The notes: a model not told the origin generated them from the sequence alone. DNA of 36,506 nucleotides from Candidatus Thalassarchaeaceae archaeon (GCA_029942125.1 JAPYUB010000005.1:1-36506), one strand, 5' to 3'; shown: positions 7,259-26,945, numbered from the stretch's first letter. Translations and numbers: made by a program.

Positions 7259-10198
7259 ATGCTAGGTGTGTCTCGGGGCAAGACTTCTGTGGCCATTCTA
7301 TTGGTCACAATCATGTTGACGTCACTTTCCGCGACCATGGTCTCAGTGCCTCAATCTCTGGACGCCGAACCCATCCGAAATGATTCCAATACAGTGAGTT
7401 ACGATCTCTACTTCGCATCTGCACCGGGTGGCCACCCTACAGATGGACGAATCACAACCGAGAGACCGGATAGCGGCGGCCAAGAGGAGGAATCCGCCTC
7501 GGGAACCAATGTCGAATTCTCTACCGATCAGATGCTTTCTGATTTGATGGTTACTGGAACTCCAAACGGCAACCAATACGAATTGGAAATCGTCCTATTT
7601 TTGAAGGCCACTGGACAAGAAGGTTCCACGGTCGATTGGACCGTATCTGTCATCGCTGGAACCTCCATCATCGGCACTGAAGATTGGACTACAGATGCCT
7701 GTACGCCATCACTAGTGGGTGGCAACAGTTGTGGATTCGATGAGCGATATTTCCATCCTAGTTGGGGTGGAAACCCCGATTTCGACGTTGAAGCCAACGA
7801 ACGCCTCAAGGTAGTTGTCTCCGCAGATATGAATTGTGATTCGGGCAGCGGGGGCACCGATCCACCCAACGGCACAGGAGATGATACCAGTGGTCGCCAA
7901 TGGGGCTCAGTCGATTGTGATGCATGGGTTGCATGGAATGAGATTGATACCGCATCGGGTCGCTTCTCAAAGATTGAAGTTGAGACACAACCCTTGACCG
8001 GTTCTCAGGTCAAAGTACAGCGTCCGGGGAGTGTTTGGACTGACGATGAAGTCGATACTTGGTTCCCCAATGACTCACCTGACATGCGCATCATGCAATT
8101 CAATCTAGAGTTGCGCAACGCCTTCGGTCGCGAAGATATCGATGAAGTAACTCTGGTGATGATCAAACCTGATACAACGATTGCATTCACACACACATTC
8201 GATGATGAAGAATTGGTGACCGACAACAACGCCCTTCGTGCTCAGTACAACTGGACCTATCCAGGTGGACTTGAATCAGGCGATTACGAACTTGACTTGG
8301 ACGTTGAGAATATCCAAGGGAAATCATTCACCATCGATCATCCGACGGTTCGAATGAGCGACTATGGCGTTGCACTGACACATGGAAGCGGACGCGTCGT
8401 CGAATATATAGCTCCAAGTTCGACCACCCCTGTGAACCTTGACTTGCGGCACGTCGGTGCCAGTGGGAGCGAATACGATCTCACAGTCGAGTTGGCCGTA
8501 TTGACAAACTTGGGATCAAATTGGATTGTTGAATTTGATCGTGCAGATCGCATCTACAGTCTCTCGGGAGGTGGCCAAGTTGCTCACCCCACTCTTCTGC
8601 TGACCGCACCTGATGATTTGTCTGGCTCACCCAATAATCTGGATATTCGCGCTGTTGCATATGACTCGGAGTCTGTGATGGTTCACCAGACAACATTGCA
8701 GTTGGATTTGGAGAAACTTGACACTTACGCTCCACCCATGGTCAGTCTGTGGCCCGAGGCCCATGACAATCAGTATGCGAACAGTACAGGGGCGCTTAAC
8801 ATAGACGAAAACATCCATCGTTACGTTGAGGACGGCGTATTCACTACGTTTTATCTTGAGATTTTCAATACTGGATTCGACACTGATCAGTTCAGAATCG
8901 ATGTTAAGCAGGATTCCAATGCGAATCTACGATTTTGGGATAACGATACCGGCCAGCGTATCGACGAGGATGAAGGCGATGGTACTTTCCACACTAGCAG
9001 TCTAGACCGCCACACAACGCAGACCATCCGTTTGCAGGTTAAACCCTCAACATCCCGCGATGACCCCGACAGTGGACTCATCGAATTAGAAATCATCAGT
9101 ATGGGTAATTCTACCCAGCAGGCACGTATTGCATTCACCATTCAGCGCACCTACGGCATTCAAGCGCAGGTTGTATACGATTGCGATGCGACACCGTTCG
9201 GTCACGTCGATGCAGACATCTGCCTCAACAGTGCAACGAAGATTGCATTCGATATCGAAGTGACGAATACGATGACTGAGGGTGACACGGTCACTGATTG
9301 GCTCCTTGTCAACCCCAAGGACCTCGATCGCAATACTGACGATGACTTGTATTCCGAAGCTAACCCCAAGTATGGACTGTGGCAATATGATATCACCGAC
9401 AACAATGGCGACCCATCACCCAGGGTTCAATTGGCCCCTGGTGATACCGAAATGGTGAATCTAGACATAACACTAACAAGTCAGGTTTCCGAAGGCAATC
9501 ACACAATTTATCTCCGCGTGCGTGAGGACATTTCTGATCTCTCGATTGCCCGATATTTCGATCTGCCTCTGACGATTCTAATTGGCAAGGACAACCCTCA
9601 ACTTTCGATTCATCAAATTACACCAGTTCATGCTGCTAAACCAGGTGATATACTTGAAATCAGAATGAAGGTCAAGAACGATGGCAATAGCGATACCATG
9701 GTCCTCTTGGGGGCGGATGCAAGCAATGATTGGTCTGCATCTGCAGCCAATTATACATCGGGCGCCCAACTCGTCTCTGTACCTGCTTTCAGTGAAGTTG
9801 AATTTGAGGTTAGAATCATTGTTGGTGATGACTCGATGAATGGCGACGATGTACCTGTTGTCGTGACCGCGCAACCGCTCGCGGAGGACGATTCATGGCC
9901 TGACGAATATACTGCGAAAAAGACCATCATCGTTCAGGTTACAATCAATGATCCCATAGGTATCATTCTCAATGAAGTGCAGAACCCTCGTCCCGCTACT
10001 ATTGCCATTGCATTGGGTGTGGTCATACTGCTCGTTGCGGCAGTTACCGGACGCAAAAATCGCATTGAGTACATCGATGTCTGGGTTGACGATGATGAAA
10101 TTGATGGTGAAGAAGAAATGGAATTACCAGACTTGGTCAGTGGCGAAGACGATGACTCATATGATGATGATGATATCGAACTCGTAGACCTCGATTGA
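7259..10198 (+). CDS. Large secreted surface protein with C-terminal membrane anchor and acidic tail
   Basis: This 979-residue protein has no function I recognise. It starts with a signal peptide (residues 1-36: basic MLGVSRGKT, then a hydrophobic stretch ending near SLDAEP). The body is beta-rich, with segments such as FYLEIFNTGFDTDQF and RMKVKNDGNSDTMVLL, typical of CARDB/NEW3-like Ig folds found in archaeal surface proteins; two pairs of cysteines in the first 230 residues (DACTPS..NSCGFD and MNCDSG..VDCDAW) could form disulfides. Near the C terminus is one membrane helix (about residues 915-932, PATIAIALGVVILLVAAV), then a basic stop-transfer and a strongly acidic cytoplasmic tail (DDDEIDGEEEMELPDL... 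DDDDIELVDLD). Many N-X-S/T sites suggest glycosylation. It lies just upstream of the giant transglutaminase-like protein on the same strand, with a hairpin between, and may be its partner or substrate (inference). Confidence 0.85.
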   Translation: MLGVSRGKTSVAILLVTIMLTSLSATMVSVPQSLDAEPIRNDSNTVSYDLYFASAPGGHPTDGRITTERPDSGGQEEESASGTNVEFSTDQMLSDLMVTGTPNGNQYELEIVLFLKATGQEGSTVDWTVSVIAGTSIIGTEDWTTDACTPSLVGGNSCGFDERYFHPSWGGNPDFDVEANERLKVVVSADMNCDSGSGGTDPPNGTGDDTSGRQWGSVDCDAWVAWNEIDTASGRFSKIEVETQPLTGSQVKVQRPGSVWTDDEVDTWFPNDSPDMRIMQFNLELRNAFGREDIDEVTLVMIKPDTTIAFTHTFDDEELVTDNNALRAQYNWTYPGGLESGDYELDLDVENIQGKSFTIDHPTVRMSDYGVALTHGSGRVVEYIAPSSTTPVNLDLRHVGASGSEYDLTVELAVLTNLGSNWIVEFDRADRIYSLSGGGQVAHPTLLLTAPDDLSGSPNNLDIRAVAYDSESVMVHQTTLQLDLEKLDTYAPPMVSLWPEAHDNQYANSTGALNIDENIHRYVEDGVFTTFYLEIFNTGFDTDQFRIDVKQDSNANLRFWDNDTGQRIDEDEGDGTFHTSSLDRHTTQTIRLQVKPSTSRDDPDSGLIELEIISMGNSTQQARIAFTIQRTYGIQAQVVYDCDATPFGHVDADICLNSATKIAFDIEVTNTMTEGDTVTDWLLVNPKDLDRNTDDDLYSEANPKYGLWQYDITDNNGDPSPRVQLAPGDTEMVNLDITLTSQVSEGNHTIYLRVREDISDLSIARYFDLPLTILIGKDNPQLSIHQITPVHAAKPGDILEIRMKVKNDGNSDTMVLLGADASNDWSASAANYTSGAQLVSVPAFSEVEFEVRIIVGDDSMNGDDVPVVVTAQPLAEDDSWPDEYTAKKTIIVQVTINDPIGIILNEVQNPRPATIAIALGVVILLVAAVTGRKNRIEYIDVWVDDDEIDGEEEMELPDLVSGEDDDSYDDDDIELVDLD

Positions 10199-10301: not shown

Positions 10302-13300
10302 ATGTCTACGCACGTATCTTCCACCACGGCCGCCGCCGAATTCCCTTTGCGAATGCAACGATTCCGAGCCGTAGGATTGACATTGCTAATGATTTTCTCC
10401 AGTCTGGCGGCTTTCGAATATGCAGCTTGGGAGGCAGCAGCAACCAATGACCAAGATGGCGATGGACTTACGATGGGACTTGAGTTTCTGCTCAACACAC
10501 AGCCACAAGATTGGGACAGCGACAATGACGGTCTGCCGGATGGTTGGGAATACCAGTATGGCTTAGATCCGCTCGACGCGTCCAGTCTAGGCAATGATGG
10601 TGCATCGGGAGATCCCGACGGTGATGGATTAACCAACTTGCAGGAATATTCCTACCTAGAACCCTCAAGTTGGGATTTGGCCAGCACGACTAGCCTTCTC
10701 GATAACGGAGTCTGGTGGAATGGAACCGTGCCCGTTCGAAATTGGGATGAGGAAACCGCAATGCAAGCTATCCCTGGACAAGGTTCCGATGGAACTGATG
10801 AAGATCCGATGGGTGACATGTGCAACGACAACATCGACAATGACTACGATGGCCTTGTTGATTCGGCAGACCCTGACAATGACGGCGATACAAATTGTGG
10901 GAGTGATGATGACGATGGTGACGGCTTAATCGATGAGGATCCCGATGGCTGGGATACCGATAACGATGGCATGTCCGATGGTTGGGAAGTGGCCAACAAT
11001 CTGAATGCGACCAGCGCATCTAACGACGATGGTATGTTTGGAGACCCCGACGGCGACGGTCTTGTCAACATTTACGAATACATGAATCCGTCTTGGGACA
11101 CCAGTTCGAACGGTGTCGATTATTTCCAACCTGGTCCAGCAGGAAGTGGCCGAACAGAGACTATCTCTCCCTGTAACCCCGTCCTTGCGATTGGACCCGG
11201 TGGCTGTCTCACATTGACGGCAGAGGTTGATGGCGTCTTGTCCACAAACCCCATGCAAGCCGATACCGATGGTGACGGACTAAACGATTCATACGAAGCC
11301 TTGGTTCTGCTAACTGACCCGACTGATATCGACACAGATAGTGATGGCATCAACGATGGTGTTGAGGTTGGGGGCATGTATGGAAATCCACCCCAGGCCA
11401 GCGATCCTCGAGACAACAACACCGATGACGATTTGTTAGACGATGGCGATGAGGACAAGGATGGCAACGGTCAGATCGATGCCAACGAAACAGATCCAAC
11501 ACGCCGTGAAGATGCTGGTGATTTCGACAATGATGGTATTGAGAATTGGGAAGAGAATCTTACCTGTACCAACTGGAATGTGTACGACACTGATTTCGGT
11601 GGCATCGGTGATGGTGATGAGCGCAATTGGTCACATGGCACAGATCCCTGTGATTCCATGATAGACTACTCCACACTGATTGTATCCTACAGCAGCTCAT
11701 TGCAGCGCCTCACGATTTCCAATGCTTCGGGCTTTAATCCGAACGGAGGAACTGGATTTTACAACGATTCAAGTGGCCAGCATACTTCATTCGCATTCGC
11801 ATCTTCTCAGTCGAATATTCTCTTCGGGGTAGCTTTGCCTCCGCCGCCTGGCACAACCGATGTTGTCAGTCGAAATGGGTCTTGGTGCCACTACGATGCT
11901 ATCAATACCGGGACAATAGGTACCACTCAGCGTCATTGTGATGATGATTATGAGGATACGGATGGCGATGGCCTTGCGGACTGGCAAGAATTGCTAGGCA
12001 CCTTCGGTTTCACATCTCTACCTACTCAAGTGGATTCCGATGGCGATGGTGTCAATGATTACGACGAAGTCATGGGTGGTACTGACCCCATGGAGCCCTG
12101 TGATAACAATCTGGACACGGATGGCGACCTGTTGAATGATTATTTTGAAAACAATACAGGTTGTCCTTTGGATTTCATCCCCGGAATCATTGGTAATGGT
12201 AGTGCCGATACATATGTCACAAATTATCTCAATCCTGATACGGATGCTGGTGGTGTTTGGGACGGTCAAGAATATCTCGATGGAACCGATCCAGCAAATA
12301 ACCCGGGGGATGATCAGAATCCCATCGATACCGATGGCGATGGCATCCCTGACAGTGTTGAGAACATCACAGGTACGGATTGGAGAGATCCCGATACCGA
12401 TGGTGGCGGAATGATTGATGGCGAGGAATGCCCCCCTCCGATGTGGATTTTCGGCTGCATGGGGGGGAATTTCAATCCGTGGGACCCTACCGACGATGTC
12501 ATTCAGAACGAGATTGTATTTTATGCTAACAATACAACCATGGGGACCGTCGACAACACACTCGATCGCTACTGGCGTGTGCATACCTATGACGCCTACA
12601 CAGGGGCTGCCTATGGAAAGAATGCATCCACTCAAATCTGGACGCCGATGTCTCAAGGTTTCATCGATGACCAGTGGATTGCGAACAACAGTTTCCACAA
12701 TTCAACTGAGTTTTGGGATATCATGTTCATGAATCCAGTCACCCGTGCTAACCTTGCGCACCCCTATGCGACCACTGGCGTCATGAGTTGGGCCGACACG
12801 TTAGCCAATCTGAGCCACGGCAATATTACACACGACATCAAGGTTGAAGATGCGAGTGTAATCGGTTTCTTTGCCCAGGCCCCTGAGATATGGTATGAAA
12901 TTGCTGAGTTGGCGAATTCCATTCCCTACGCGGGCGCGGGCACGTATGCGCTTGACGTTCCAGCTGAATTCACCGATTTGGCTCACCCCTACTCAGAGGT
13001 ACTTAACATCACATTGGACGTTATCAGTCAGGCGGCATGTGCTCCGACGTGCAGTGCATATGACAAGGCGATTGCCTTGCAAGATTTCCTCGTCAATGGC
13101 AACGCCACCATTGAATATCTACGCAATCACGATGGCAGTGGATTACCCATGGAAGAGGATTTGACGAATCATTTGATTATTGCCAGTAAGGAAGGTAGTT
13201 GCACAGAATTCGCGACTGCATTCACCACCATGCTCCGTCTGGCCGGATTGCCGGCTCGAAAGGTCACTGGATATCACGGCGGATATTGGAATGGAGAAGG

Positions 13301-16300
13301 CTACACCGTCGCCGGCGCACATTCATCCTCATGGTCTGAAGTGCACCTACAAACCAACCCTGCAGGGAATTCCTTGGATATGGGATGGATTCCTCTGGAT
13401 CCCTGCCCAGCCGCTGCACCCACCCAAATCGTCAATGAGACCTGGGGGCCATTCACTGCTCATCGTGATCACTTGACGGGAAATATCTGGCTCAACGGAA
13501 CATTGGAGTTCACCGATAACAACACAGCCATCGAAAATCACACGGTTCGCCTCTATCTTTTGCCTCCGGCAATAGCTACTACGAATCCAAGCCTTGGGGC
13601 CTCTGGTGTTCGTCAATTGGGTAGTGATATGACAGGATCACTCGGCAACTTTTCTCTCCGCGGAATCCCTGCTGAGATTGTTGAACCCGGCTACGGCTCT
13701 TTGGTCGTTGAAGTTCAACAGGGTGGTTATGTCGAACATTCGTACAAGACATTCGCTTGGACCATAAATATCACGGACTCTCTCAACATCACTCAAGATT
13801 CACCGTCTATACCGGGTGAGCCCATTGTTGGTGCAGGTACCACGACATTGATTTCGGGCCATGTTCGCTGGGAGAACATCCCATTCTTGGATCCAAGCGA
13901 TGCAGGTCCCCTTGTTTTGTTCATGAATTACACGAGTTCTGTCGATGGGGCCGTTTCCCTCCAGACTCTTGTTGGAGAAGATGGCTACTACGAATTCAAC
14001 GTCACTCTACATGAGAATGAAGCCGTCGGTCTTTTGCCAGCGACCATTGAATTCCCTGGTTGGCATGTTGATAGCCTTCACTTGATTACACCACCGACTT
14101 ACCACGCTTTGCCCGGTGCTTACAATCTGAATTTCAACATCAGCGCAGCTCCGAATCTCACAGCGACATTGGAAGGTCCGTATACCAACGCCTCCTTGTT
14201 GTCAATCGATGACCTTGTATGGATTAACGGCTCCATTCTGAGCAGAGGCCAAAACATAGTGCCAATGGAAGGTACACTGTGGTTACAGATGCGAATGAAC
14301 GGTTCCACCGGTCCGATGGAGAACATCACTTCTTGGGTACTCAATGCATCCACATGGTCTTCAAGCCCGGGCAATTTTAGTATCGTCTGGACCTTCTTCG
14401 CGACCTATGCGCAGGGTCTTGACCCTGGATATATCGATGTTGAACTACTCTTTGTTCCCGACACACTTGGGGCCACCGACAAAGCCAACCTCTCCGCGGA
14501 TTATGGACTACAGTCCATTCTAAACATCGAATACAACATCGGACCTTTACAGCGTGGCCAAGATGCCACCTCGAACATTGGTTTGACCGATCATCGTGGA
14601 AACTATGTATTGCCAGCCAACGGGACTTACGAATCCACATTCAATGGCCTTCTCATCGCCACAAACAACTCTGCTGATGCAGAATTCGGTAGCATCAGCA
14701 TCGATTGGATTCCCGACGCCAATACACCGGTCGGTGATTATGTGTGGTACACCAACTACACAAACTCGACACAATGGTACAAATCCAACAACAGCCAAGG
14801 CAGTGTTCGCATAATGGGTTTCATCATTATCAGTTCAACCCTTGCAGATGATTGGGTGCATATTGGCAATTCAAGTTACATCACAGGCGATATTCGTGAT
14901 GACCTGACCAATAACCCAATCATAGGAAATCAAACATCACTAATCTTTGAGTTTGAATTCCCTGGTGTTGGCCCCAATGATCCGATGGGTAACCCGCCCC
15001 CTCCAATTTACATTCCAATTGGCACGACTGCGGTCAATGCGACCACTGGTTTGTACAACATTTCGTTCACAATGCCCACTTATTTCCCCGGTGGAATTTG
15101 GGGCATCATTGTCTCTGCTGATTTTGCAGCCGGTGCACCCGTGGGTGGAGCTTACTACGCGCTAGACACCTCTCCTCAGTTTGATATCGGAACCGAATCT
15201 GAAGCCGCGCTGTTCCTGAACGCCTCAAACGTGCTTGTAGAGGTGAACAACCAACTGATTCTCGAAGTAGATGTTCACGACGTCGCCGCGTACTTCTCAA
15301 TGGCCCCTCCTGGTCAAGAGGGCTTGGCCAATATATCGAATGCTGCTGTAGAATTCTTCTGGGATGCCAATGGCGCCAATACGTCACTGGGGGTCTTTAC
15401 CACCGGCTCTAATGGCCGCGTCACACTGACTTGGACCGTCCCACTAGAACAAGATCCAGGATATTACGACGTATGGGCTGTGATGTACAACGATCAATCC
15501 GATTCGTTGTCGACAAACAACGGCGCTCGATACACTGGGAATGACACGTTGGCCAATATCACAGTTCAAGTGCAGAGTTCAGTGATTATCGATACAGCGG
15601 TACCCAACACAGTGGTTGCCGGCACCAGTTTCCAACTCTCTGGGGTTGTGCAAGATTCTGTCAATTCCACGCGTCCATTCTCAGGCCCAGTTCGAATCGA
15701 TGTATTCTGGCTTGATGACACTGAGGAATTGATGGCTGCCGGCCATACGACTTCTGTCAATGGTACATTCAATCTGACTGTGGATACGGATCCAGTCAAC
15801 GATGGCATCGTCAGCGGAAACCACACATTGGTAGTCTCTGTCATAGATGGTTCAAATCCATTCTATCTCACTGCCACCGGTACGAAAGATATCCTGGTTA
15901 TGGGCGTTACCGACTTTGAAAATCTCTACCCGCTTTCGGGCATAGTCGTCACGCGAGGTGACTCAGTCGACTTTGGCGGTAAACTAGTCGAAACGACCGA
16001 CTTTAACTGCAGCACATGCAATGGTGCGCCTCGAATCATCAATTTCACATCGGTTGCAGCTCAATTTCACGATACTTGGTTGCCAGAGAATACCACTGAT
16101 GTTACGGGTAGTGTTGGATTCACATACAATATTCCTACGACGCAGCCCCTGGGTCCAATCATCATCACTCTGTACTACAATGGAACGTGGCATATGCTCC
16201 CAGATGCTAGCCCAATAACCACTGTGACAGTTCGTTCGATTACCGTTCTCGTGGTCGACCCTATTGTCGACAACCCGATTGCAGGCGGTGGATTCAACGT

Positions 16301-19300
16301 CACTGGGACCTTGGTCTCAGACAATGGTTCAGCTATCATTACGCGCGATGGAACACCGATGTTACCAACCATGACTTTTGACATTGATGGATTTACTACG
16401 ACATTCACTGTCGCCAACGGTACAGCACAAGGCGACACGACTTGGTGGGCGTGGGTCACACTCAATGCCGACTTCCCTCGCGGAACACACACGATTACTG
16501 CAGAATACACCCCTACGGTCAATTTCTATGCATTCAGTTCAGCGAACAATACCTTCGACAGCCGAGGATATTCCGTGCTAACAATCACCAATCCATTAGA
16601 TCTCAATCTTGACGATCGAACCGTTAGAGGTGAGAATTTCACCGTGAACATTTCACTCATCGATAACGCCGGAAACCCGATTGATAATGCGACCGTCTCC
16701 ATCGACCCCGTGGGCATGAACATTCCCGTGTTCGTGACCACTGATTCCAATGGCTTGGGTTCAGTTGAGATTACGGTTCTGAATACGACCGTACAAGGCC
16801 CTCATTGGATTGATGCGAGTTTCGCAGGCATCAACGGTACAACAGGCGTTATTGGAGATGCCATGAGTACCCACATCATCATTCTTGCACCGACTATTTT
16901 GACTGTTGACAGTGTCGAAGGTGTTCTCATCGCTGGACAGACACTAATCGTCAATGGTACACTTCTTGATGAATGGGGTCAACCATTGCTAGATTCTGAT
17001 GGCAATGCATCTGGCGGCGTCATCCACTTATTTGTGGATGGCAATGATATTGGAGGAACATGGGCAACCATCTCCAACGGCTCCACAGGCACATATTCAC
17101 TTACCTACACTTTGCCTCAGAACACACTTGCGGGTACGCACAGCCTAGAGGTTCGCTTCCTTGGCGGCTATCTATGGGTAGACCCAGTTGGTGCTGGAGA
17201 TTCAGTCAATCCTGAATACTACTTGCCTTCGAATTCATCTGCCGCCTTCAACGCAACCCAGCCCACCCATATCACCATCATGGCTGGTGGCGGACCAATC
17301 GACCGCGAGCAACTCATTTCCATCTCTGGAGTCCTCTTGGATTCCGTTGATCGTCCAGTTGTCAATATGACCATCAGCATCTATCTTGATGGCGTGTTCC
17401 TAACCAATGTTACAACCAACGGAAATGGCACCTTCGACGTATTTTACCCGGTGCCCTCCGACATGACTCTTGGTCCGGTGACCATGGATGTGGAATATGC
17501 TGGCGCAGCCTTCTATCTATCTTCGAGTGCCAACGTTGACTGGCTGGTTTACAGTTCGGTCAATGTAGAAATCAATTCACCAGATGCTGTGGCCATCGGT
17601 GACACAGTGGCAATAACTGGCACCGTCCGCGACAATCTTCCAGCGGGCTGGATTCCGGGTCACAATGTCGACATCAGAATAGATGGAATGCTCATTGGCA
17701 ACGCATCAACCGATGACAATGGAATATGGTCATTGAATTGGACCATCCCATCTTCGATGACATTGGGCAGCCACTCCATTGACGTATACGCACCCGAGCA
17801 AGGCTGGTATCGTAGTGGTGAGGCCAATGAAACACTCTGGGTGGCTCACCACTCATCCATTACACTCAGTGCAGCAAACGGAGGAGATGCAACTCGCCAA
17901 TTCGATTGGGAGATTACAGGCCGATTGTATGACAGCGATGTCGTTGGCCTACCTGGCATCGAGGGTGCCACGGTGCAAGTCGCCCTAGATGGTGCATCGA
18001 TTGCAACTCTGACCACTGATGAAAATGGAAACTTCAGCCTCTCCATCTCCGTCGATTTATCGAGTACGCGAGGGGATCATATCGTCACTGTTCTTTACAC
18101 AGGGGATTCCTCATGGTTAGGTAGCGATCGCAATATCACCGTGACCACTTGGGCCGATGTGAACATCCAGATTACCTTTGTCTCAGACAATGCAATACGC
18201 AGTGATTCAACACATCCAGTTCGAATTGAAGGACGTATTGACGAAGTCGGTGGAAGTGGAAATTCACTCACCGATTTGACTCTGGTCTTGATGAGTGGAA
18301 ATACAACCTTGCCCACATCCAATTTGGTCTGGGACAATCAGACTGGTGGTTTTGTCATCGAATTCACTGCAGATCGATACATCCTCCCTGGATCTCTAAT
18401 AATTGAACTTAGTAGCGAGCAAGATAATGTTAGATATCTCAATTCGGGTAATTCCAGTACGGAGTTGTTCCTACGGGTCCGTGCGATCTTCGATATGGAG
18501 TACGACACCGTTGCTTGGGGTGGACACACCATCAATGGTAGTGTCACAGTGAGAGATTATTACACCAGTCAAATCATTCCAGATATTGCGATTGAGGCCC
18601 ATTTGCGCAATGAATCACAAATCGATCCTTTCGAAATGTATCTCTCTGGATTCACCAATGCTGGTGGAATTTGGGAGTTTGAATTCTCCGTCCCTGAAAT
18701 TCTACCACCACTCTCGGATCAAGGCCACTGGGGTACATTGCATCTGCAATTCAACAGCTCATCGGCTGAACTTTCCGAAGATAGTCGCCAAAATCTTGCG
18801 CGTGACCTGTATGCGTTGGATTACGAGTCACAAAGCCAAATCGATGACAGTGTCTCATACTGGGTCTATGCCGGTGTCGCTGCAATCATCGCAGCAGCAG
18901 CCGCTGGTGCTTGGATTCTCTATGTGCGACGCCGTGAGACGATTGATGAATTGGCTGAAATCTTCTCATATACAGCAGAATTACTGGCTGCAGGTGACTC
19001 GATTAGAGAAGCCATTTTCCATTGCTACGAGGATCTCTGTGCAACCCTGATGTCGCACGGCCATCTACGCCGTGACTTTGAAACCGTCCGTGAATTCGAG
19101 ATGGCGATTCGAAAGGCGATGCCAACCATCAGTGATGAGGCATTGACCGCACTTGACAATATGTTTGAGATTGCGCGTTACAGCCGCCACGAACTAGGGG
19201 ATACACACCGAAATCAAGCGGTTGCTGCACTACAGCGAGCCATTGCTGAGATTCAGAATGCATCACAGATGCCAGCAGCAGCGGCACCACCGCTAGCCTG

Positions 19301-19301
19301 A
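10302..19301 (+). CDS. Giant surface protein: Ca-binding repeats, transglutaminase-like domain, Ig-like repeats, DUF4129-like tail
   Basis: A single 2999-residue frame. Residues 1-45 form a signal peptide (core VGLTLLMIFSSLAAF; an alternative Met is at residue 18). Residues about 49-728 hold many thrombospondin-type-3/dockerin-like calcium loops (DxDxDGxxD, e.g. DWDSDNDGLPDGWE). Residues about 880-1040 form a transglutaminase-like cysteine protease-fold domain with the expected triad Cys967 (EGSCTEFATAF), His1007 (GAHSSSW) and Asp1033 (GWIPLDPCP). From about 1110 to 2840 I count about 15 Ig-like modules with the pattern 'v.G.v.D....p....v.i.ldG....t.t..nGtf', rich in N-X-S/T. One membrane helix (about 2854-2877, ending YVRRRE) leads to a cytoplasmic helical domain (about 2885-2985, TVREFEMAIRK..., EIARYSRHELG) resembling DUF4129, the partner of transglutaminase domains in bacterial TgpA-type proteins. 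Likely outside role: cleaving or cross-linking surface or environmental proteins, or adhesion (inference). Confidence 0.9.
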   Translation: MSTHVSSTTAAAEFPLRMQRFRAVGLTLLMIFSSLAAFEYAAWEAAATNDQDGDGLTMGLEFLLNTQPQDWDSDNDGLPDGWEYQYGLDPLDASSLGNDGASGDPDGDGLTNLQEYSYLEPSSWDLASTTSLLDNGVWWNGTVPVRNWDEETAMQAIPGQGSDGTDEDPMGDMCNDNIDNDYDGLVDSADPDNDGDTNCGSDDDDGDGLIDEDPDGWDTDNDGMSDGWEVANNLNATSASNDDGMFGDPDGDGLVNIYEYMNPSWDTSSNGVDYFQPGPAGSGRTETISPCNPVLAIGPGGCLTLTAEVDGVLSTNPMQADTDGDGLNDSYEALVLLTDPTDIDTDSDGINDGVEVGGMYGNPPQASDPRDNNTDDDLLDDGDEDKDGNGQIDANETDPTRREDAGDFDNDGIENWEENLTCTNWNVYDTDFGGIGDGDERNWSHGTDPCDSMIDYSTLIVSYSSSLQRLTISNASGFNPNGGTGFYNDSSGQHTSFAFASSQSNILFGVALPPPPGTTDVVSRNGSWCHYDAINTGTIGTTQRHCDDDYEDTDGDGLADWQELLGTFGFTSLPTQVDSDGDGVNDYDEVMGGTDPMEPCDNNLDTDGDLLNDYFENNTGCPLDFIPGIIGNGSADTYVTNYLNPDTDAGGVWDGQEYLDGTDPANNPGDDQNPIDTDGDGIPDSVENITGTDWRDPDTDGGGMIDGEECPPPMWIFGCMGGNFNPWDPTDDVIQNEIVFYANNTTMGTVDNTLDRYWRVHTYDAYTGAAYGKNASTQIWTPMSQGFIDDQWIANNSFHNSTEFWDIMFMNPVTRANLAHPYATTGVMSWADTLANLSHGNITHDIKVEDASVIGFFAQAPEIWYEIAELANSIPYAGAGTYALDVPAEFTDLAHPYSEVLNITLDVISQAACAPTCSAYDKAIALQDFLVNGNATIEYLRNHDGSGLPMEEDLTNHLIIASKEGSCTEFATAFTTMLRLAGLPARKVTGYHGGYWNGEGYTVAGAHSSSWSEVHLQTNPAGNSLDMGWIPLDPCPAAAPTQIVNETWGPFTAHRDHLTGNIWLNGTLEFTDNNTAIENHTVRLYLLPPAIATTNPSLGASGVRQLGSDMTGSLGNFSLRGIPAEIVEPGYGSLVVEVQQGGYVEHSYKTFAWTINITDSLNITQDSPSIPGEPIVGAGTTTLISGHVRWENIPFLDPSDAGPLVLFMNYTSSVDGAVSLQTLVGEDGYYEFNVTLHENEAVGLLPATIEFPGWHVDSLHLITPPTYHALPGAYNLNFNISAAPNLTATLEGPYTNASLLSIDDLVWINGSILSRGQNIVPMEGTLWLQMRMNGSTGPMENITSWVLNASTWSSSPGNFSIVWTFFATYAQGLDPGYIDVELLFVPDTLGATDKANLSADYGLQSILNIEYNIGPLQRGQDATSNIGLTDHRGNYVLPANGTYESTFNGLLIATNNSADAEFGSISIDWIPDANTPVGDYVWYTNYTNSTQWYKSNNSQGSVRIMGFIIISSTLADDWVHIGNSSYITGDIRDDLTNNPIIGNQTSLIFEFEFPGVGPNDPMGNPPPPIYIPIGTTAVNATTGLYNISFTMPTYFPGGIWGIIVSADFAAGAPVGGAYYALDTSPQFDIGTESEAALFLNASNVLVEVNNQLILEVDVHDVAAYFSMAPPGQEGLANISNAAVEFFWDANGANTSLGVFTTGSNGRVTLTWTVPLEQDPGYYDVWAVMYNDQSDSLSTNNGARYTGNDTLANITVQVQSSVIIDTAVPNTVVAGTSFQLSGVVQDSVNSTRPFSGPVRIDVFWLDDTEELMAAGHTTSVNGTFNLTVDTDPVNDGIVSGNHTLVVSVIDGSNPFYLTATGTKDILVMGVTDFENLYPLSGIVVTRGDSVDFGGKLVETTDFNCSTCNGAPRIINFTSVAAQFHDTWLPENTTDVTGSVGFTYNIPTTQPLGPIIITLYYNGTWHMLPDASPITTVTVRSITVLVVDPIVDNPIAGGGFNVTGTLVSDNGSAIITRDGTPMLPTMTFDIDGFTTTFTVANGTAQGDTTWWAWVTLNADFPRGTHTITAEYTPTVNFYAFSSANNTFDSRGYSVLTITNPLDLNLDDRTVRGENFTVNISLIDNAGNPIDNATVSIDPVGMNIPVFVTTDSNGLGSVEITVLNTTVQGPHWIDASFAGINGTTGVIGDAMSTHIIILAPTILTVDSVEGVLIAGQTLIVNGTLLDEWGQPLLDSDGNASGGVIHLFVDGNDIGGTWATISNGSTGTYSLTYTLPQNTLAGTHSLEVRFLGGYLWVDPVGAGDSVNPEYYLPSNSSAAFNATQPTHITIMAGGGPIDREQLISISGVLLDSVDRPVVNMTISIYLDGVFLTNVTTNGNGTFDVFYPVPSDMTLGPVTMDVEYAGAAFYLSSSANVDWLVYSSVNVEINSPDAVAIGDTVAITGTVRDNLPAGWIPGHNVDIRIDGMLIGNASTDDNGIWSLNWTIPSSMTLGSHSIDVYAPEQGWYRSGEANETLWVAHHSSITLSAANGGDATRQFDWEITGRLYDSDVVGLPGIEGATVQVALDGASIATLTTDENGNFSLSISVDLSSTRGDHIVTVLYTGDSSWLGSDRNITVTTWADVNIQITFVSDNAIRSDSTHPVRIEGRIDEVGGSGNSLTDLTLVLMSGNTTLPTSNLVWDNQTGGFVIEFTADRYILPGSLIIELSSEQDNVRYLNSGNSSTELFLRVRAIFDMEYDTVAWGGHTINGSVTVRDYYTSQIIPDIAIEAHLRNESQIDPFEMYLSGFTNAGGIWEFEFSVPEILPPLSDQGHWGTLHLQFNSSSAELSEDSRQNLARDLYALDYESQSQIDDSVSYWVYAGVAAIIAAAAAGAWILYVRRRETIDELAEIFSYTAELLAAGDSIREAIFHCYEDLCATLMSHGHLRRDFETVREFEMAIRKAMPTISDEALTALDNMFEIARYSRHELGDTHRNQAVAALQRAIAEIQNASQMPAAAAPPLA

Positions 19302-23501: not shown

Positions 23502-25682
23502 ATGCGCCCCCGCCTTGTCGCCTTTCTTCTCGTCGGTTTGATGTTGATTGCCCCCGCAATTGGCTTGTCAGAATCTTTGCTTGAGGAAGACAAGATTTCC
23601 GAAAGTTCCGCCCGCTCGACGAACAACGCCCTACTCTGGGGCGCTCACGTTGCAGGTTCAGGTAGTACGGATTCCGTTATGAGCATCGAAATGGATGCAA
23701 TGGGCCGCACCTATGTCTGTGGTTATTTCTACAACACTGCAACATTTGGCAACATCACCTTGAGTTCTTACGGGAGTTACGACATATTTGTTGGGCGCTT
23801 GACCAATGGAGCTTGGGATTGGGTTCAGAAAGCGGGTGGAACCAATAGTGATCAATGCCATGACATCGCTGTGGATGATGGTGGAAACATCACCATTACG
23901 GGATACTATTACTCTTCGAGTACGGCGAATTTTGGCTCACAATCGATGTCAGGCCAAGGTAGCAATGACATCTTCATTTCCCGTCTTGATACCAATGGAA
24001 ATTGGATATGGTCGAAATCAGCTGGCGGTTCTAGTGCCGATTATGGATATGGCGTAGCAATGGATAATTCAGGTAACGCTTACATCACCGGCGCCTACTA
24101 CAACACTGGATATTTCGGGTCTATCACCTTGAGTGCCTACAGTTATGATGAGGCTTTCTTGGCGAAATTGGACAACACTGGAAATTTCGTCTGGGCCAAG
24201 CGATTCTATGGTTCGTACTATCAGCGAGGCCGGGATGTCGATGTCAATGCCAATGGCGATATCGCCGTAACGGGTGAGTTCAGTTATCGAATCAATTTCG
24301 CTGACGTCGGTGGTCCCGAATTGATTCCTAGTTATGCATCAAGCAGTTACTATCGCGTCTGGGTCGCGAAATTCACCAATTCAGGACAATTGACCTGGGC
24401 TAGGATGGCTGGATACCTTCAGTCCTCGTACAGTTCCTATGGCCATGGGGTAGCCATCGACGACTCTGGAAATGTTGCTTCCTCTGGCCGCTTCCAATAT
24501 TTGATGGATTTCAATTCCAATAATAATCATCGAATGTATGCATACCAAAACTCCAATAATTGGGATTGCTTTGTGGCTAAATGGAATGCCAATGGGACCT
24601 ATCAATGGGCTCAGAATGCTGGTGGGTCAAGCACTGATTACTGTTATGATTTGGATATGGACAAGACGTCAGGTAATATCACAATCTCAGGTATGTTCAA
24701 CGGTAACGCGTGGTTTGGGAACAGTCAATTATCATCCTCTGGGTCCTATGATGCCTTCATAGCACACGTTCCATCAACAGGCGGTTGGGATTGGATGAAG
24801 AAGTTCGGCGGCTCGAGTTCCGAGTATGGTTACTCGGTCGCTATGCGAAATGGTATGTTTGCCTTTGGCGGATATTTCAACGGCATGGCCACCGATGGTT
24901 CGGGACAAATATCCTACAACGCTGTGTCGGGTGCCGATGGGTTCGTCATAATGTACGGTTCAGATCAAGATGGCGATGGAATTGGTGACCAAGTCGATGA
25001 TTTCCCTTGGGAATCTTCGCAGTGGCTGGATACAGATGGCGATGGCTATGGCGACAATCTCGATGGTTGGCAAGGAGATAGTTGCCCAACCGTGTATGCT
25101 ACATCCACACTTGATCGCTTTGGTTGTCCCGATGCAGATGGCGATGGTTGGTCTGATGAAGGTGATGATTTGCCTTACGAACCCACGCAATGGATAGATG
25201 CAGATGGCGATGGATTTGGAGAAAATTCCAATGGAGTAACACCTGATGCTTGTCCAAATGAATGGGGTGATTCTTGGAGAGACCGTTTGGGATGTCGCGA
25301 TTTGGATTCAGACGGTCAATCGGATTTGAACGATTTTTTCATGAACAATCCAACTCAATGGTCGGATTCCGACAGCGATGGTTTGGGTGACAATTGGGGT
25401 GATGGTACGTGGAACGTTTCACGGGCTGAGCATTGGCCAGGGATGTGGATTGAGAACGCCACCGCCTCTGATCCAACTCCTCTCGATTTCGATGGTGATG
25501 GATTTGAAGATTTGAGTGCCGGTGGGCCTTGGGGGCCATACGATGACTGCGTATACGAATTTGGAACTTCAACTCGTGATCTCATCGGGTGCCCTGATAG
25601 CGATGGTGATGGTTGGTCCAACGACGGCGATGCTGTCGATGACAATCCCACTCAATGGGAAGATCAGGACGGAGATGGCTAG
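23502..25682 (+). CDS. Beta-propeller / Ca-repeat surface protein, part before an in-frame amber codon
   Basis: The signal peptide (residues 1-22, MRPRLVAFLLVGLMLIAP) is followed by about seven repeats (about 40-485) of a blade-like pattern: 'W..aGGs..D.g..va.d..Gn.yitG.f....fG...l.s.g..D.fva.l...G'. This fits the SBBP (seven-bladed beta-propeller) repeat. From residue 486 come thrombospondin-type-3-like calcium repeats (DQDGDGIGDQ, DTDGDGYGDN, DADGDGWSDEG), with paired cysteines in the later units. The frame stops at TAG 25680-25682 in the middle of a repeat, but the same frame continues open to 26945 with more repeats and the membrane anchor. The product ended here would be secreted but not anchored. 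In parallel repeats the stop position is Tyr or Phe (e.g. DGDGYGDN), so a tat-to-tag change explains it. No strong ribosome-binding site at ATG 23502. Confidence 0.8.
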   Translation: MRPRLVAFLLVGLMLIAPAIGLSESLLEEDKISESSARSTNNALLWGAHVAGSGSTDSVMSIEMDAMGRTYVCGYFYNTATFGNITLSSYGSYDIFVGRLTNGAWDWVQKAGGTNSDQCHDIAVDDGGNITITGYYYSSSTANFGSQSMSGQGSNDIFISRLDTNGNWIWSKSAGGSSADYGYGVAMDNSGNAYITGAYYNTGYFGSITLSAYSYDEAFLAKLDNTGNFVWAKRFYGSYYQRGRDVDVNANGDIAVTGEFSYRINFADVGGPELIPSYASSSYYRVWVAKFTNSGQLTWARMAGYLQSSYSSYGHGVAIDDSGNVASSGRFQYLMDFNSNNNHRMYAYQNSNNWDCFVAKWNANGTYQWAQNAGGSSTDYCYDLDMDKTSGNITISGMFNGNAWFGNSQLSSSGSYDAFIAHVPSTGGWDWMKKFGGSSSEYGYSVAMRNGMFAFGGYFNGMATDGSGQISYNAVSGADGFVIMYGSDQDGDGIGDQVDDFPWESSQWLDTDGDGYGDNLDGWQGDSCPTVYATSTLDRFGCPDADGDGWSDEGDDLPYEPTQWIDADGDGFGENSNGVTPDACPNEWGDSWRDRLGCRDLDSDGQSDLNDFFMNNPTQWSDSDSDGLGDNWGDGTWNVSRAEHWPGMWIENATASDPTPLDFDGDGFEDLSAGGPWGPYDDCVYEFGTSTRDLIGCPDSDGDGWSNDGDAVDDNPTQWEDQDGDG

Positions 25683-26945
25683 GGTGACAATGAATTTGGC
25701 ACAGAATGGGATGCCTGCACCGATAGACCGGGAACCTCGACCCGTGATCGGTACGGCTGTCCAGACAATGATGGCGATGGATGGTCCAACGACAACGATG
25801 AATGTCCATCATTGGCGAGTCTATTGGACAATGGTTGCCCCGACAGCGATGGCGATGGATGGGTCGACGATGGGCTCCCTGGTCAAGTCGATGATTGTCC
25901 TGAAGACTGGGGAACCTCTACAATTGATCGAAATGGCTGCCCTGACGCAGATAGCGATGGCACTTCAGATGACAATGACCCCTTCCATTTAGATCCGACA
26001 CAATGGTCTGATGAAGATGACGACGGCTATGGTGATGAACCCGGTGGCAATCAAGCGGATGATTGCTTGAATTGGGCTGGTACCTCCAATCAGGATGGAG
26101 TGTACGGGTGTGCAGATGGTGATGGCGATGGATGGGCCGATCAAATCGACCTATGGAACACCGACCCTAACCTATGGTCAGATACAGATTTAGATGGATA
26201 TGCTAACCAACGCGGAGACCCAGAGTTGTCCGACGACTGTCCTGATGATTATGGCACAAGTACCCGCTTTTACCTTGGTTGCCCAGATATGGATGGTGAT
26301 GGATGGCCTGACATGAAGGATTCAGATACCGATGGCGATGGATACTCGGACATCACCGAATTGAGTGCAGACCCTCAATCCGACCCTCTAGATCCGCTTT
26401 CTACTCCTGCCGATGATGATGGAGATTTTGTTGCCAACCATGAGGAACCCATAGAGACATCGACGGTTGATGACCCTGTCATTCAGGGCGTCATTGCTGT
26501 TCTTGCAAGCGGTCTACTCATCACATTCATCATGGCATGGACATTGTTTGCATCTGGAAAGGGAAAGCGCCGAGAATACGAAGGGATGCTGTTGATGGTT
26601 GAGCAAGCTGAAGGATTCTCTGGATTGGCTGCTGTTGAAAAGGAACTTGACGAGATGCTTGAATCCAATCGACTTGGTGCGGGACAGGGCTTGCTCCTCA
26701 AGGATCGGCTTGAATCCCGTAGATTTACTTTTGAGGACGACATTTCGGGTGCGGGTTCTCATCCAGGCCAAGGGACAGATTCCAGTTCAGATACTGATAT
26801 GGCCATGATTGAAGAACACGGGACGGTCACCTCATGGAGTGATGATCAGTCGCAATGGAGCGCAGAACAGCAGGCGTGGTACGAAGAGGCCAAACAATGG
26901 GGTGGATACTACGATGCAGATGGCAATTGGATACCACTTCAGTAA
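25683..26945 (+). CDS. Continuation of the surface protein after the amber codon: Ca repeats and membrane anchor
   Basis: Same frame as the preceding gene part, with no further stop. If translated on its own, the first usable start is a TTG at 25812, which has no signal peptide, so the extracellular repeats would be stranded in the cytoplasm. It therefore makes sense only as the C-terminal half of one protein of about 1147 codons. It holds further Ca-binding repeats (DNDGDGWSND, DSDGDGWVDD, DSDTDGDGYSD), a membrane helix (about codons 993-1017 of the whole, VIAVLASGLLITFIMAW), a basic stop-transfer (GKGKRREYE), a helical cytoplasmic stretch (KELDEMLESNRLG) and an aromatic C-terminal motif, QQAWYEEAKQWGGYYDADGN. 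Nonsense mutation, read-through, strain variation or sequencing error are all possible. Confidence 0.7.
   Translation, partial: GDNEFGTEWDACTDRPGTSTRDRYGCPDNDGDGWSNDNDECPSLASLLDNGCPDSDGDGWVDDGLPGQVDDCPEDWGTSTIDRNGCPDADSDGTSDDNDPFHLDPTQWSDEDDDGYGDEPGGNQADDCLNWAGTSNQDGVYGCADGDGDGWADQIDLWNTDPNLWSDTDLDGYANQRGDPELSDDCPDDYGTSTRFYLGCPDMDGDGWPDMKDSDTDGDGYSDITELSADPQSDPLDPLSTPADDDGDFVANHEEPIETSTVDDPVIQGVIAVLASGLLITFIMAWTLFASGKGKRREYEGMLLMVEQAEGFSGLAAVEKELDEMLESNRLGAGQGLLLKDRLESRRFTFEDDISGAGSHPGQGTDSSSDTDMAMIEEHGTVTSWSDDQSQWSAEQQAWYEEAKQWGGYYDADGNWIPLQ

Follow-up and report, generated by a model that had tools for sequence, protein, structure and literature searches.

The stretch of DNA analysed here (the window, 36,506 nucleotides) corresponds to contig C5; the genome, 1.83 Mb in size, belongs to the order Poseidoniales (Marine Group II), the most abundant archaea of the surface ocean, which are uncultured. 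It encodes a giant surface protein, P0001, and the question raised by this locus is whether that protein is an enzyme. A sequence-only reading had recognised the single ORF (open reading frame) of 2999 residues at 10302-19301 on the plus strand, which is indeed uninterrupted, and had proposed that it joins calcium-binding repeats, an intact Cys967-His1007-Asp1033 transglutaminase triad, about 15 immunoglobulin (Ig)-like modules and a DUF4129-like cytoplasmic tail. On this basis, the protein was thought to process or cross-link extracellular proteins. Our analyses bear out the architecture; however, judging from the orthologous sequences, the canonical catalytic triad is lost, and the domain is probably a disulfide-locked pseudo-transglutaminase.

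The transglutaminase-fold domain and its catalytic positions

Three of the proposed elements were recovered by Pfam above the curated cut-offs: the calcium-binding repeats (TSP3_bac, 42.2 bits versus a cut-off of 25), Transglut_core (residues 920-1034, E=1.8e-12) and DUF4129 (PF13559; residues 2908-2978, E=4.3e-6, 27.1 bits versus 24.8). The same holds for Big_3_5, a family of Ig-like modules, 16 of which were counted between residues 1059 and 2803 by a profile built from a single module and refined iteratively on 41 orthologues. The TSP3-type rod in front of the transglutaminase domain contains 18 calcium-loop motif starts, some of them overlapping. Hydropathy analysis identified an N-terminal hydrophobic stretch and one membrane helix at about residues 2851-2876, which places the transglutaminase domain outside and the DUF4129 tail inside the cell, as had been suggested. 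Among the aligned orthologues, the transglutaminase domain is present in 41/41 and DUF4129 in all 43 tails. A PADLOC scan gave no match to a defence system.

The AlphaFold2 (AF2) model of residues 735-1145 has a pLDDT of 91.9 and a pTM of 0.90, and among solved structures it matches the periplasmic domain of TgpA (6g49) best, with a Foldseek E-value of 4.3e-13 and an hmmsearch profile E-value of 2e-9. The upstream 'YWR..T.D.YTG' region also aligns with TgpA, this stretch alone giving 1.6 bits. Since the structural match covers most of the TgpA periplasmic domain, the giant contains a TgpA-type ectodomain rather than just a transglutaminase core, and the TgpA/DUF4129 relationship proposed earlier stands. 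The polytopic TgpA_N/DUF3488 region was not found: there is no PF11992 match, and there is only a single N-terminal hydrophobic stretch.

Of the proposed triad, the placement of Cys967 proved right, while His1007 is out of register. In a gapless profile alignment, 'VHQFDAHAWVE' of TgpA (6g49) lies against 'evygkdltsWvE' of the family, so that the catalytic His of the TgpA 'HAW' motif corresponds to Ser1009, and His1007 corresponds to the Asp of 'DAHAW'. The same register was obtained with an intact transglutaminase domain of a sister order (locus L080, GNAHAW) and with a small transglutaminase-like protein of the same genome (locus L036, EPHAW). The latter, encoded at L036:1691-3259 on contig C86, is a 522-residue protein with a zinc ribbon, a membrane region and a domain in which Cys and His are kept (RGDC...PHAW). 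Apart from the giant, it alone in the genome matches Transglut_core, and it sits among apparent TrkA/TrkH potassium transport genes.

The residues at the catalytic positions were counted over 126 distinct cores of orthologues. None of these has His at position 1009 (T51 A20 S19 R17 D9 G7 N3), position 1007 is variable (D55 H47 N23 A1), and the third proposed residue, Asp1033, is Asp in 65 cores and otherwise mostly Glu (E42 N8 Q7 and others). Thus, the Cys-His-Asp triad of TgpA-type transglutaminases is absent, and already the same-genus orthologue at locus L038 has Asp in place of His1007. With the triad lost in close orthologues, the idea that the giant processes or cross-links protein as a surface enzyme is unsupported. 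We also considered a catalytic base relocated to position 1015 or 1007, and rejected both because neither is conserved (1015 is H73 R47). Furthermore, the domain shows a mean pairwise identity of only 41%, lower than expected if it retained an active site, which we count in favour of a non-enzymatic role. Taken at the level of sequence, this appears to be an enzyme-like domain without catalytic machinery.

The cysteines of the ectodomain suggest what became of the former nucleophile. Cys967 is kept in 125/125 cores that have a residue at this position. Cys1035 is present in 62/62 sequences of the sets chosen independently of it and in 126/126 of the wider set; 80 loci had been retrieved with a pattern containing Cys1035, and these bear on the absence of His, whereas they say nothing about the invariance of Cys1035. 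The rod holds six conserved pairs of neighbouring cysteines (174/199, 291/302, 422/450, 529/546, 600/621 and 710/719), and the pairs 913/917 and 1903/1906 are each gained or lost jointly across orthologues. This leaves Cys967 and Cys1035 as the only invariant ectodomain cysteines outside such pairs. As all others pair with neighbours, by parity these two are probably partners; where they sit in the fold suggests a location close to the old active site for both. Such a disulfide would permanently occupy the former nucleophile.

A protein of nearly constant length with a conserved DUF4129 tail

Matches to the transglutaminase region were found in 135/148 genomes of the family and in 297/340 genomes of the class, nearly always as a single copy, family f3 of the class Poseidoniia giving no more than weak matches; as metagenome-assembled genomes (MAGs) are incomplete, absence from some of them carries little weight. 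An orthologue is also present in a public MAG labelled Rhodobiaceae (L148, CALDQY010000118.1), which is probably mislabelled or a mixed bin. Among 42 aligned full-length Poseidoniales proteins, the open frame measures 2994 +/- 17 residues, and the column distance from C174 to C2913 is 2720 +/- 13. Repeat-rich adhesins usually vary readily in repeat number; the giant does not. TSP3-type proteins of this order have previously been interpreted as adhesion genes (PMC6461757).

In the same alignment, conservation is distributed unevenly. The mean pairwise identity is 65% in the rod and 41% in the Ig array, while the tail (residues 2890-2982), at 68%, is the best-conserved part of the protein. The membrane helix next to it reaches only 22% and the membrane-proximal stretch 27%, a difference that suggests, from sequence comparison, that the tail has a specific cytoplasmic partner. 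No solved relatives of the tail were found by sequence, and searches by fold gave only weak matches of a four-helix type.

Many members of the TgpA family carry a C-terminal DUF4129. We surveyed DUF4129 and DUF58 in 118 genomes of the phylum, covering 77 genera, treating genomes as independent in the adjacency counts. Outside the Poseidoniales, a DUF58 gene lies within 7 kb of 47/61 DUF4129 matches, always downstream and in 46 cases on the same strand; by our own estimate, chance would produce such adjacency in about 1-2% of matches. DUF58 is present in 62 of the 63 genomes having DUF4129. In family f3, two giants (loci L080 and L081) directly precede DUF4350-MoxR-DUF58 genes and so head those operons. 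Within the Poseidoniales, the copy numbers agree: 29/29 genomes have exactly two DUF58 genes, and 26/29 have two DUF4129 matches. Each of the two DUF58 proteins has the other as its closest relative, and no one-to-one pairing between DUF4129 giants and DUF58 operons was obtained by sequence, the deep branches of the tail tree being weak. Together with the conservation of the tail, the gene linkage to MoxR-DUF58 lends support to the earlier suggestion that a signal, or else a force, may pass through the tail.

The genome of the window conforms to this pattern. Its two DUF4129 proteins are P0001 and a second giant without a transglutaminase domain (L035:2804-10495 on contig C29; 2563 residues), whose neighbours resemble L18e/L13/S9 and whose relatives of about 2600-2740 residues are found across the order. 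It also has two DUF58 operons (loci L092 and L093), with DUF4350 matches that are weak (below cut-off) and MoxR in one of them, at L093:3203-4336. The operon at L092:3238-10014 lacks MoxR, and the gene just upstream of its DUF4350-like gene resembles Cdc48/VCP; perhaps it stands in for MoxR.

What the giant protein may do

On balance, we think it likely that the giant is an adhesion or receptor tether of fixed length that works with a MoxR-DUF58 complex, rather than a cross-linking enzyme. It would be a core cell-surface protein of Marine Group II, built from the outside inwards of a TSP3 rod presumably stabilised by calcium, the pseudo-transglutaminase, the Ig stalk, the helix and the tail. 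The distal rod and the pseudo-enzyme, which may now bind partners instead of modifying them, would engage a neighbour: a second cell, a particle or the envelope of the same cell. In trans, the tail would dock onto a membrane complex of MoxR, DUF58 and DUF4350, and the ATPase of that complex could control assembly, turnover or signalling. The most economical history is that a TgpA/DUF4129 protein gained TSP3 and Ig modules inside a MoxR-DUF58 operon, a state that would be retained in f3, and that in the Poseidoniales the gene left the operon and the catalytic His was lost, while the fold may have been kept as a binding or structural module. A more specific version, in which the protein is a transmembrane receptor whose disulfide-locked pseudo-transglutaminase, held on a stalk of fixed length, would sense or grip a partner outside the cell and relay the event via DUF4129 to an ATPase complex of MoxR and DUF58 encoded at another locus, the receptor being the archaeal surface half of the MoxR-DUF58 machine, is one that we advance tentatively, and it may well be wrong.

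Several points weigh against a non-enzymatic tether linked to MoxR-DUF58. The disulfide is deduced from parity and conservation, and a nucleophile that was kept would explain the constancy of Cys967 as well. Papain-like enzymes can move their catalytic base (PMC10318531), and by this analogy the loss of the canonical His is by itself no proof of inactivity. An active enzyme with a relocated base, or one that is redox-switched so that opening of the Cys967-Cys1035 bond exposes the nucleophile, would accommodate both this precedent and the invariant cysteine. However, the surroundings of the site contain no further invariant His, and the invariant acids D953 and E1013 are, in our reading of TgpA-like alignments, family-wide structural positions, which makes such an enzyme quite improbable. 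We give very little credence to an active transglutaminase or cysteine protease using Cys967-His1007-Asp1033: the Pfam and fold matches are to an enzyme family and Cys967 is invariant, but the canonical His is missing throughout, His1007 is off position and mostly not His, Asp1033 is kept in only about half of the cores, and an invariant Cys1035 lies beside the old active site.

The link to MoxR-DUF58 is also open to challenge, as none of the 55 Poseidoniales DUF4129 genes has DUF58 within 50 kb; with the genes apart, a functional link within this order would derive from ancestry and copy number. This separation, together with the constant length, a heavy load of sequons and the universality of the protein, would suit a plain structural giant, such as an S-layer-like protein or spacer, in which the DUF4129 tail is a mere anchor with no tie to MoxR-DUF58 in this order. 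We regard this as unlikely, since a tail as conserved as the rod, next to so variable a helix, suggests a specific cytoplasmic partner.

If the preferred reading of a tether is correct, the comparison offers DUF4129 a testable role: it would be the end at which large surface proteins dock inside the cell, with MoxR-DUF58-DUF4350 serving them. The transglutaminase domain may likewise be a clear-cut example of an enzyme fold converted to a structural or binding domain, probably locked by a disulfide. As a single-copy, nearly order-wide surface protein of near-constant length, the giant is a prime candidate for a main envelope or contact protein, and is usable as a marker.

Gene context and related systems

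The coordinates of the features are given in the table. The 979-residue protein encoded upstream of the giant has no Pfam family above cut-off, and is found at this position in 40/41 Poseidoniales loci, the remaining locus being at a contig end. The gene order lipA, SDR (short-chain dehydrogenase/reductase), 979-residue protein, giant and DinG-like helicase is kept in most loci of both families; the names lipA, SDR and DinG are our presumptive assignments from the sequences. Elsewhere, at 23502-26945 of the window, two ORFs of 726 and 377 residues in different frames together make up a propeller/TSP3 surface protein; the split may reflect a frameshift, a sequencing error or a decayed gene.

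Table. Features of the giant protein P0001 and its upstream neighbour in the window
Feature	Position	Strand	Basis
Secreted, single-anchored 979-residue protein with acidic tail; candidate partner	7259..10198	+	103 bp before the giant, same strand
Giant surface protein P0001, 2999 residues	10302..19301	+	Single uninterrupted 2999-codon ORF
N-terminal hydrophobic stretch, residues 23-41; probable signal peptide	10368..10424	+	Hydropathy
TSP3-type Ca-binding rod, residues 46-734	10437..12503	+	Pfam TSP3_bac, loop motifs D-x-D/N-x-D-G/N, Cys pairs, conservation
TgpA-like ectodomain, transglutaminase fold, residues 735-1050	12504..13451	+	AF2 model, Foldseek, hmmsearch
Transglut_core, residues 920-1034, catalytically degenerate	13059..13403	+	Pfam and alignments
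Cys967, equivalent of catalytic Cys, invariant; probable disulfide partner of Cys1035	13200..13202	+	Orthologue cores
His1007, catalytic residue of the sequence-only reading; off catalytic position, D/H/N in orthologues	13320..13322	+	Alignments
Ser1009, true catalytic-His position; never His	13326..13328	+	0/126 cores
Cys1035, invariant second Cys, two residues past degenerate Asp1033	13404..13406	+	Orthologue sets
Stalk of 16 homologous Ig-like modules, residues 1059-2803	13476..18710	+	Iterated profile; Pfam Big_3_5, CarboxypepD_reg, MG2/MG4
Membrane helix, residues ~2851-2876	18852..18929	+	Hydropathy; AF2 helix
Cytoplasmic tail with DUF4129 (2908-2978), helical, motif LRRDFETVREFE	18930..19298	+	Pfam, AF2

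In the library searched, no paper named transglutaminase together with DUF4129, or together with Marine Group II and euryarchaeota. Among the closest known systems, TgpA of Pseudomonas aeruginosa (PF11992 + PF01841; 6g49; PMC3507681) shares the ectodomain fold, including the upstream region, and the location of the transglutaminase domain outside the membrane. However, the giant differs from TgpA in the absence of the polytopic TgpA_N region, the loss of the canonical His, the second invariant Cys, the TSP3 rod in front, the 16 Ig modules between transglutaminase domain and membrane helix, and its size (3000 versus 668 residues). The L080 and L081 proteins of family f3 (2660 and 2015 residues) resemble it in their giant size, TSP3-like calcium repeats, Ig modules, transmembrane helix and DUF4129. 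On the other hand, both retain the catalytic Cys and His and head DUF4350-MoxR-DUF58 operons, and L080 (His within HAW) keeps part of TgpA_N, with its intact transglutaminase domain preceding most of its 25 TSP3 repeats. The paralogous giant L035 of the same genome shares the TSP3-like repeats, an Ig-like domain, the single transmembrane helix and DUF4129 tail, but has no detected transglutaminase domain and adjoins ribosomal protein genes. Finally, in the bifidobacterial PFNA cluster (pkb2-fn3-MoxR-DUF58-tgm), too, MoxR and DUF58 occur with a large adhesin of several domains and a membrane-spanning protein resembling transglutaminases (PMC8430577). In PFNA, the adhesin and the transglutaminase are separate genes of one kinase-controlled cluster (PMC8430577), whereas in the giant, whose gene is unlinked to MoxR-DUF58, an adhesin-like stalk and a putative pseudo-transglutaminase are joined in one protein.

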